From contig CAMEZQ010000004.1 in NCBI GenBank assembly GCA_945947915.1, forward strand, positions 1-64,000: a DNA stretch of 64,000 nt, read 5' to 3'. The stretch is from an uncultured Clostridia bacterium. Lineage in GTDB: Bacteria > Bacillota > Clostridia > Oscillospirales > Butyricicoccaceae. Below, in pieces: positions 49,930-52,313 of the stretch (position 1 is its first letter; every line of letters starts with the position of its first letter). The notes under the pieces were generated by a model. It ran no database searches and was not told where the DNA came from. It saw only the letters and a list, made by a program, of their open reading frames with translations. The position numbers and the translations under genes were made by a program.

Positions 49930-50685
49930 TCAGAGCTGGACCTTTTTGAATTCCTCGATGAAATCCAGCGCGTACTGGGCGCAGCCTTCCAGCATCTTCT
50001 GGCCCCATTCTTTGGTGGCCGTTGTGGGATGGTCGACGCCGAACCAGCCGTTGTCGCTCATCTTGCGGACGTCCCGGCGGGTGAGAATGTCGAAACCGCG
50101 GAAGTTGATGGAGCCGAAGCCGGAGGTGGTCAGGTTTTCGGTCAGGTGCTGCAGGTTGTTGTCGCCCATGAGGGAGATATCCACCAGATCGTCGCCGATG
50201 GCCATCATGGCCGCCGTCTCCTCGCCGCCGCCGTGGCCGCCCACCCAGGCGGGGTCCAGGGTCCAGGCCAGCGTCCACCAGTTGAGGATGCAGCCCATGG
50301 CGCCCTTCTTGTCCAGGTCCATGCAGACCTGCTGCAGGGCGGCGTTGTTGCCGCCGTGGCCGTTCATAAAGAGGAACTTGCGTGCGCCGTGGCTGTACAG
50401 GCTGTCGCAGATGCGGCCGACGACGGCGTGCAGCACATCATAGCCCAGATCGACGGTGCCGGGGAAGCCGGCCAGATATTCGGTGGAGCCGTAGGGCAGG
50501 GCGGGGGCGATCAGCACGTCGGTGCGGGGTTCCATCAGCTCGATGATGCGGGTGGGGACGAGAAAATCGGTGCCCAGAGCCACGTGCTTGCCGTGGCATT
50601 CGACACTGCCGACGGCCAGAATGACCATGTCGTTGTGCTTGAAGTATTCTTCGGCCTGTGTCCAGTTGATGCGTTCCAGTCTCAT
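49930..50685 (-). CDS. Creatininase family protein
   Basis: 251 residues, a metal-dependent cyclic amidohydrolase fold. Motifs GSVECHGKHVALGTD (metal ligands Glu, His, Asp, about 27-41), FMNGHGGNNAAL and GGHGGGEET. The family includes creatininase, MftE of mycofactocin synthesis and formamide hydrolases of riboflavin analogue pathways. First gene of an operon with an M20 amidohydrolase. CGAAGGAGCG before the ATG. The divergent spacer holds a 132-bp tandem repeat. Confidence 0.88.
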   Translation of the reverse strand: MRLERINWTQAEEYFKHNDMVILAVGSVECHGKHVALGTDFLVPTRIIELMEPRTDVLIAPALPYGSTEYLAGFPGTVDLGYDVLHAVVGRICDSLYSHGARKFLFMNGHGGNNAALQQVCMDLDKKGAMGCILNWWTLAWTLDPAWVGGHGGGEETAAMMAIGDDLVDISLMGDNNLQHLTENLTTSGFGSINFRGFDILTRRDVRKMSDNGWFGVDHPTTATKEWGQKMLEGCAQYALDFIEEFKKVQL

Positions 50686-50777
50686 AAAAATAACGCTCCT
50701 TCGTTTTGTTCTTTAGAATGGGGAAGCGGGTTTTCGGTAAATCCATTATAATCCCCTTTACCGCGAAAAAGCAACTG

Positions 50778-51051
50778 TGGTATAATGGCCGCAGAAAGAT
50801 TTTTAGTGGCCGTAAGCGGGATGCACGGCCATTATACCGATTTATCCAATAAAATTATACCATCGCGGCGTCCGGGCATATCGTCAAACAGGCCTTTTCT
50901 TCGCCGCTATGGTATAATGGCCGCAGAAAGATTTTTAGTGGCCGTAAGCGGGATGCGCGGCCATTATACCGATTTATCCAATAAAATTATACCATCGCGG
51001 CGTCTGGGCATATCGTCAAACAGGTCTTTTCTTCGCCGCTATGGTATGATC
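50778..51051. repeat. 132-bp tandem repeat, two copies plus a partial third
   Basis: 50778-50909 and 50910-51041 differ at only three positions, and a third copy begins (TGGTATGAT, 51042-51050). Each copy begins with an extended -10 promoter element, TGGTATAAT. Arm A (50779-50791) pairs perfectly with 50826-50838, 13 bp (14 in copy 2). Arm B (50854-50870) pairs in 16 of 17 positions with 50902-50918, which includes the start of the next copy, so the two hairpins compete. 132 is divisible by three and a frame runs through (50785-51156), but the differences are all amino-acid-changing, so it is unlikely to code. Fills the gap between divergent genes. Confidence 0.9.
51042..51050 (+). promoter_or_regulatory. 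Extended -10 promoter of the aminotransferase gene
   Basis: TGGTATGAT, the start of the third, incomplete repeat copy. No good -35 is present at 17 bp, as is allowed for TGnTATAAT promoters. Confidence 0.55.
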
Positions 51052-51098: not shown

Positions 51099-52313
51099 AT
51101 GCAGTATTCCAAGAAAGTGGAGCCCCTCTTCAAAAGCGGAAGAGAATCGGGCATAGACAAGCTCAGCGATCCGGAACTGATCAAGCTGTCCATCGGCAAC
51201 CCGCCCAACGAGGGATTTGCCGTGGAGCGCATCCGGGCCATTTCCGAACGGCTGCTGCGGGAGGATCCCTATTCCATGCTCAGCTATTCCTCGGCGGCCG
51301 GCCGCGCCGACCTCAAGGCGGCCATCAAGGCCTTTATGAACCGCCGCTTCCCCGTGATCGGCGATGACGATGAGATCACCATTACCACCGGCGGCCAGCA
51401 GGCCATCGCGCTGGCGGCCCAGCTTTTCTGCAATGACGGCGATACCGTGCTGGTAGAAATGCCCACGTTCATGGCGGCGCTGGACACACTGCGCGCCCAG
51501 GGCGCTCAGCTGGTGGGCGTGCGTATGGAGGAGGACGGCATCGACCTGGTCGATCTGGAAGCCAAAATGCGTCTGCAGCCCAAGCCCAAGCTGCTTTACC
51601 TGATCTCCGATTTTCACAACCCCATGGGCGTCTGCCTGCCGGAATACAAGCGCAGAGTCATCTGCGAGCTGGCCTATAAATACGGTATCCCCGTGCTGGA
51701 GGACAACCCCTATTACGAGCTTCGGTACGACGGCGAGTTTATCCCCTTCGTCAAGTGCTTTGACACCTACGGCATGGTGGCGCTGACCTCCAGCATGTCC
51801 AAGATCGTGGCTCCCGGCATGCGCGTCGGCTTCGTGGCCGCGCCGGGCAAGATGGGCGAGGGCTTTGCCTTGCTCAAATCGGCCGATGACCTGCATGTTT
51901 CCACCTGGCCTCAGCGGATCTGCTGCACACTGCTGGAGGAGGGCCTGGAGCAGGAGCTGGAAGACCTGCGCGCCCTTTACGGCCATCGGGGCCGGCTGAT
52001 GTATGAGCAGCTGCGGGCCCGCTGCCATCCCGTCGTGCGGCTGACCAAGCCCCAGGGCGGCATGTTTATCTGGGTAACGCTGCCGGCTTCCTGCCGGAAT
52101 ATCGATGCGTTTATCGACGAGCTGGCACAGAACCGGGTGGTGGTCGTGCCGGGTAAGGACTTTTACTGCGACCAGGAGGCGAGCACCAACAGCTTCCGCG
52201 TCAGCTATTCTCTGGCCTCCGACGAGCAGATCGAGAAGGCGGCCCGCATCATCGGCGAGCTGACCTACAAGTATATCCCCGGTCCCCGGCGTCCGGGCAG
52301 CGCCAGGGACTGA
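51099..52313 (+). CDS. PLP-dependent aminotransferase, class I fold type (2-aminoadipate/LysN-like)
   Basis: 404 residues. The PLP lysine is in TSSMSKIVAPGMRVGFV (about 237-253); other marks are YSSAAGRADLKAAIKAF, TTGGQQAIALAAQ and YLISDFHNPMG. This group takes in LysN, kynurenine and branched/aromatic aminotransferases and the MocR-type domain, here without a GntR part. The ATG at 51099 follows AAAGGAG; an upstream in-frame ATG at 51075 has no site. Downstream is an acetyltransferase remnant. Confidence 0.9.
   Translation: MQYSKKVEPLFKSGRESGIDKLSDPELIKLSIGNPPNEGFAVERIRAISERLLREDPYSMLSYSSAAGRADLKAAIKAFMNRRFPVIGDDDEITITTGGQQAIALAAQLFCNDGDTVLVEMPTFMAALDTLRAQGAQLVGVRMEEDGIDLVDLEAKMRLQPKPKLLYLISDFHNPMGVCLPEYKRRVICELAYKYGIPVLEDNPYYELRYDGEFIPFVKCFDTYGMVALTSSMSKIVAPGMRVGFVAAPGKMGEGFALLKSADDLHVSTWPQRICCTLLEEGLEQELEDLRALYGHRGRLMYEQLRARCHPVVRLTKPQGGMFIWVTLPASCRNIDAFIDELAQNRVVVVPGKDFYCDQEASTNSFRVSYSLASDEQIEKAARIIGELTYKYIPGPRRPGSARD

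Follow-up and report, generated by a model that had tools for sequence, protein, structure and literature searches.

A probable small mobile element, present in tandem, at the -10 box of an aminotransferase gene promoter

The 64-kb stretch of DNA analysed in this study (referred to below as the window) contains a tandem array situated between two divergently transcribed genes. The gene on the minus strand (49930-50685) encodes a creatininase-family amidohydrolase (PF02633, Pfam E-value 8.8e-59), while the one downstream of the array, on the plus strand (51099-52313), encodes a class I/II PLP aminotransferase (PF00155, Pfam E-value 3e-38), whose ATG at 51099 is preceded by the ribosome binding site AAAGGAG. 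Tandem Repeats Finder placed the array at 50778-51047 (period 132, 2.0 copies, 97% match) with a score of 519, the strongest in the window, where the four other arrays scored 52-58.

The array, as assembled, consists of two complete plus-strand units, unit 1 (50778-50909, from the head TGGTATAAT to CGCCGCTA) and unit 2 (50910-51041), followed by a 9-nt third head, TGGTATGAT (51042-51050), which is a possible extended -10 and, according to the junction profile described below, marks the return to native DNA. The two units are 97.7% identical, differing only at 50825, 50873 and 50893; a fourth difference, at 50777, lies just beyond the copy boundary. These data agree with the preliminary description of the locus, which had reported two copies with three differences plus the start of a third, each opening with an extended -10: the sequence TGGTATAAT was found at four sites in the window (both strands), every one of them within the array, against 0.08 expected.

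Each unit can form two hairpins. In unit 1, H1 pairs GGTATAATGGCCG (50779-50791) with CGGCCATTATACC (50826-50838), and H2 pairs ATTATACCATCGCGGCG (50854-50870) with CGCCGCTATGGTATAAT (50902-50918), the right arm of H2 overlapping the head of unit 2; both are covarying helices in an alignment of 86 members (see below). The corresponding hairpins of unit 2 are H1, 50911-50924 with 50957-50970 (identified by the inverted-arm search), and H2, 50986-51002 with 51034-51050 (placed by sequence, in the register of H2 of unit 1). The arm lengths given previously, 13-14 bp and 16 of 17, were thus reproduced, and alternative pairings are indeed possible, since a shared GGTATAAT core ends H2 of one unit and starts H1 of the next. 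Folding was more stable than that of shuffled sequences both for the unit as single-stranded DNA (z -5.1) and for the leader as RNA (z -4.1). No Rfam family was matched within the window. A coding function was considered as well, as the unit has an open frame (132 = 3 x 44), and was dropped: all three differences between the copies alter residues, and there was no other sign of a protein.

A promoter scan yielded a single -35/-10 pair, TTTACC-18-TATAAT (50757-50786), on the plus strand at the first copy. It comprises the -35 box at 50757-50762, an 18-bp spacer and the extended -10 TGGTATAAT at 50778-50786, with TATAAT at 50781-50786. The aminotransferase promoter had earlier been assigned to the third copy; an extended -10-like motif does occur there, about 48 nt before the start codon, but a clear -35 box is absent. 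On the minus strand we predict a divergent promoter of the creatininase gene at 50745-50774 (-35 TTGCTT at 50769-50774, 18 bp, -10 TATAAT at 50745-50750), based on its sequence and on conservation within the genus; its motifs, read in this way, are left unbroken by the insertion.

Comparison with relatives revealed what this site looks like without the array. Orthologues of both flanking genes lie next to each other in all six available genomes of the same genus, and alignment of their intergenic regions showed the double promoter, CTTTACC-N-AAAAAAGCAAC-TGTGATATAAT, clearly in five of them and in an altered form in the sixth (G001). The unit is absent from this region in 6/6 genomes, and the alignment contained no single-copy precursor. 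The promoter is therefore kept in relatives lacking the unit, and by this comparison copy 1 opens with the ancestral -10 box of the aminotransferase promoter, directly behind which about 264 bp have been gained. In a relative from another species of the genus (G006) the same intergenic gap holds an unrelated palindromic repeat of about 150 bp, CTCCTTTTGAAAGGAG...CCCTCTTTCAAAAGAGGG (L054, G006:C67, about 497-655).

The preliminary description proposed a search for the unit elsewhere in the genome. In the genome that contains the window (G000) the unit occupies one locus only; dispersed relatives were, however, found in other genomes. Searched at the DNA level, 87 genomes of this taxonomic family (one per species, some of them drafts) yielded partial relatives. 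A covariance model built from nine units, used to score only those candidates that survived an initial screen, matched in 29 of these 87 genomes. The window units scored 81.5 bits (unit 1, E-value 9.6e-11) and 81.3 bits (unit 2), and the highest numbers of scored units were obtained for the complete genome G064 (37) and for G063 (32). The taxonomic family is taken to be Butyricicoccaceae, judged from the named genomes hit by a looser scan with the core pattern (Butyricicoccus faecihominis DFI.6.109 and an Agathobaculum genome).

Reading the partial relatives revealed a shared layout: GGTATAAT-stem-loop-stem-ATTATACC (H1), a spacer rich in A+T, ATTATACCAT-stem-loop-stem-ATGGTATAAT (H2), followed by a gene. 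Each of the two hairpins pairs an outer GGTATAAT with an inner ATTATACC. The elements measure about 77-132 bp and often stand head to tail, sharing heads; a compact variant of about 77 bp was found at two loci of one genome of the same genus (G005). In the alignment of 86 members, 93.7% of the cells pair, 24 of the 30 pairs have changed on both sides (shuffle mean 8.6) and 115 cells are compensatory (shuffle mean 22.1); this alignment was fitted to the model, and an independently made alignment of nine sequences showed the same trend.

Some of the weak matches of the covariance model in other genera may belong to a wider superfamily. A second model, applied to 394 genomes of the order with stricter filters and few candidates scored per genome, matched in 39. 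Outside the family most of the matches keep the outer plan, and several add a middle hairpin, GCC(A/G)TTTT..CTC-stem-AACCG..AAAA..ATGGC, in arrays with a period of about 110 bp. Such middle-hairpin elements with the GGTATAAT/ATTATACC plan were recorded at L270, L273, L274, L277, L278, L279, L281, L282 and L284, in other genera and families of the order. As judged from these shared features, the elements inside and outside Butyricicoccaceae may form one superfamily. Rfam contained nothing that covered the element beyond chance at eight related loci, scans of genome and viral collections with exact-arm patterns gave no matches, the looser core pattern matched no viral contigs, and the element was not matched in plasmid and phage records.

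The boundaries of the element were defined by comparing its junctions at 27 loci. At the heads, ATAGCCGC is conserved after GGTATA, and the sequence upstream of it holds little information other than the T(G) of an extended -10; at the tails, CGCTGT is conserved before GGTATA and little information follows GGTATAAT. At loci where the core runs on into a native C (TATACT behind the array), the A of the element is still found in the head (TATAAT), and at L135 the head has the native core GATATA, while the tail has the core of the element, GGTATA. These features place the crossover inside GGTATA and speak against target duplication of the ordinary kind. The ends of the element are thus direct GGTATA cores, and terminal inverted repeats are absent. 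As read from the DNA, these junctions show that the element inserts precisely inside the GGTATA of -10 boxes, in the orientation of the gene, leaving a -10 at each end.

The distribution of the arrays relative to genes (starts taken from a codon-usage gene caller) was biased. None of 52 array ends fell in coding sequence, compared with 81% of random points, and 44 of the 52 had a same-strand gene start within 150 bp, compared with 30% of random intergenic points. Even by itself the motif TGGTATA(A/C)T favours promoters, where 6 of its 12 occurrences in 400 kb lie; sequence specificity, combined with selection against insertions in genes, may therefore account for the promoter preference.

Presence/absence polymorphism was seen between G063 and G064, sister species with, for the most part, about 98% identity at the loci they share. 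The promoter of the transporter gene nss is empty in G063, where it reads ATCTGTGGTATAATATAAAAGC, and holds a full unit in G064; the zapA promoter is filled in G064 and empty in G063, G010, G062 and G080. The number of units also varies at loci shared by G063 and G064: one and three (L138/L119), two and three (L145/L122), two and three (L147/L128), and three and two (L146/L132). A change in copy number, as suggested earlier for the window, is thus documented between sister species at other loci, and the count in relatives proposed at that time gave none in the six genomes of the same genus; that the change was recent in the window is plausible given the 97.7% identity, but not proven. The insertion polymorphism was observed elsewhere in the family and not within the species of the window, whose genome holds a single locus.

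The units of one array are not always each other's closest relatives. Some are only 75-87% alike within an array, yet closer to units at other loci, which points to separate insertions or to conversion between loci. In other arrays, including that of the window, neighbouring units are 98-100% identical (e.g. L122 units 1-2, and L270), which points to local duplication, and the 97.7% identity of the window copies suggests the same origin for the second of them. The nrdR promoter bears quite different units in two lineages (L059 of G072, and L131/L150 of G064/G063), and possibly represents an insertion hot spot or an old insertion.

Taken together, these data make it very probable that the array is a tandem pair of units of a small, non-autonomous mobile element that inserts in promoter -10 boxes. 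In the mechanism that we propose, insertion would be a conservative, site-specific event, in which a putative recombinase acts on the folded element and joins it at GGTATA, thereby restoring a -10 box at both element ends; the internal ATTATACC copies would mimic the complement of the target. Taken alone, the step involving a recombinase that recognizes the folded strand is possible rather than probable. Because the core would be restored, further elements could insert head to tail, or resident ones could duplicate. Transcription could begin, as before, at the ancestral promoter, which remains intact, in which case the leader would be about 264 nt longer and contain strong hairpins, or, alternatively, at the last extended -10. 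If expression is affected, this is probably incidental and not the work of a dedicated switch. One observation speaks against the mobile element: at L142 (696-807, G063:C1) the four arms and the -10 box share a coordinated change of GGTATAAT to GATATAAT, as if correction had brought the arms into line with each other or with the target, and simple insertion does not account for this variant.

An improbable alternative is that the units belong to the REP/REPIN or IS200/IS605-type elements, whose mobilization depends on a Y1 HUH transposase that recognizes hairpins in single-stranded DNA. The two terminal hairpins, the end cores matched by internal complements and the lack of target duplication are all in line with this possibility, and Y1 genes are present in G063 and G064, the genomes richest in units. 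However, such genes are absent from 10 of the 14 element-bearing genomes of genus g5, including the complete G060 and G071 with 19 units, and none was found in G000; moreover, the ends of the IS200-like copies in G064 are unrelated, and GGTATA is lacking. A Y1 transposase was consequently rejected as the mobilizer on grounds of both co-occurrence and ends. These IS200-like copies (L290-L295) are near-identical, have a conserved TTAG start, and several of them are located behind a T-rich, terminator-like sequence.

The preliminary description had viewed the array as a regulatory switch, in which mutually exclusive hairpins of adjacent copies, formed in RNA or in supercoiled DNA, would control the aminotransferase gene. 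The strong folding of the unit and of the leader, the covarying helices and the position of the array in the promoter/leader region are what such a switch would exhibit. Nevertheless, a purpose-built device for this gene is quite unlikely: units built on this plan stand before dozens of unrelated genes, the unit is missing at the orthologous promoter in all six genomes of the same genus, and there is no Rfam match. In addition, the left arm of H1 includes the -10 box; it should therefore lie upstream of the expected start of an RNA initiated from that box, and be missing from this transcript.

A MITE of the classical type, mobilized by a DDE transposase and having terminal inverted repeats and a target-site duplication of TGGTATAAT, would also be short, non-coding and dispersed, and the 9-bp direct repeat at the ends of the array could be taken for such a duplication. 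This origin is very unlikely, since the ends are direct and not inverted, and the pairs TATAAT (head) and TATACT (after the array), as well as GATATA (head) and GGTATA (tail) at L135, do not derive from one duplicated target. Finally, ordinary duplication in tandem or slippage, confined to local DNA and needing no mobile element, may have produced the second window copy, as the identity of the copies and the 98-100% identical units of other arrays (L122 units 1-2, L270) would allow, but it is refuted as the origin of the unit, and is scarcely credible as the whole explanation, by the lack of a single-copy precursor in relatives, the same structure at unrelated promoters of other genomes and the presence/absence at other loci.

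The mobile element of -10 boxes resembles several known repeats. With MITEs it shares a short, non-autonomous, dispersed and insertion-polymorphic character; it differs from them in that its arms pair each end with internal sequence and not with the other end, and in that its head/tail pairs split native and element bases across the core, in place of an identical target-site duplication. Integron attC cassettes, folded palindromic sites that undergo site-specific insertion and form same-orientation arrays beside a promoter, are similar in outline, but inspection of the unit revealed no attC boxes (GTTRRRY/RYYYAAC), and the element has no cassette gene. The bcr1 repeats of the Bacillus cereus group are likewise small mobile repeats in Firmicutes; targeting of -10 boxes is not known for bcr1. 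Correia (NEMIS) elements of Neisseria are small dispersed non-coding repeats near gene starts, with possible sigma-70-like promoters and RNA hairpins (PMC10969869). The location near gene starts, the promoter motifs and the hairpins are common to both, whereas Correia elements count among the MITEs, having terminal inverted repeats and a TA target duplication; the present element, compared by its features, has direct GGTATA ends, occurs in one orientation in the -10 box and commonly forms tandem arrays. REPINs are mini non-autonomous elements with predicted single-stranded DNA hairpins and compensatory stem changes (PMC3116915), traits also found here. However, REPINs are extragenic inverted REP doublets linked to RAYTs, while our element consists of two different hairpins, H1 and H2, whose order and orientation are constant, targets the -10 box, and is present without a Y1 gene (PF01797) in the genome of the window and in the 10 genomes of g5 mentioned above. 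Nor does it share ends with IS200/IS605 elements, as judged from six near-identical IS200-like copies of G064, or match a curated cis-regulatory RNA family of Rfam.

Since the terminal inverted repeats and target duplication of MITEs and the RAYT link of REPINs are lacking, the family appears to be a variant with its own features among small non-autonomous mobile repeats, and one not described before, as far as a limited search of open-licence full text, which found no description of it, can tell. More tentatively, the elements might constitute a large undescribed superfamily of gut Clostridia (Oscillospirales, from the named hits), which would insert conservatively in -10 boxes by means of a putative recombinase, probably in the form of folded single strands whose internal complements of the target serve as guides. 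They would restore the target, accumulate in tandem and so rewire promoters that nonetheless survive. A mobile element that uses the -10 box as its target, re-forming it at either end, could alter the promoters of many genes without breaking them. It also offers a testable case of non-coding mobile DNA spreading in gut bacteria, raises the question of what enzyme would recognize a -10 box as the place to insert, and would explain tandem promoter repeats otherwise taken for gene-specific switches.

Solo right ends, CCGCT(A/G)TGGTATA(A/C)T, with no recognisable left part, were detected in G064 (L256, L257, L258), G073 (L259) and G060 (L260, L261, L262). No larger autonomous element with matching ends was seen at these sites; they mostly precede genes and are probably remnants. 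L284 (about 340-628) has an element that precedes a T-box leader (60.6 bits, under the Rfam cut-off) by about 60 nt, a placement consistent with insertion at the -10 box of a T-box operon.
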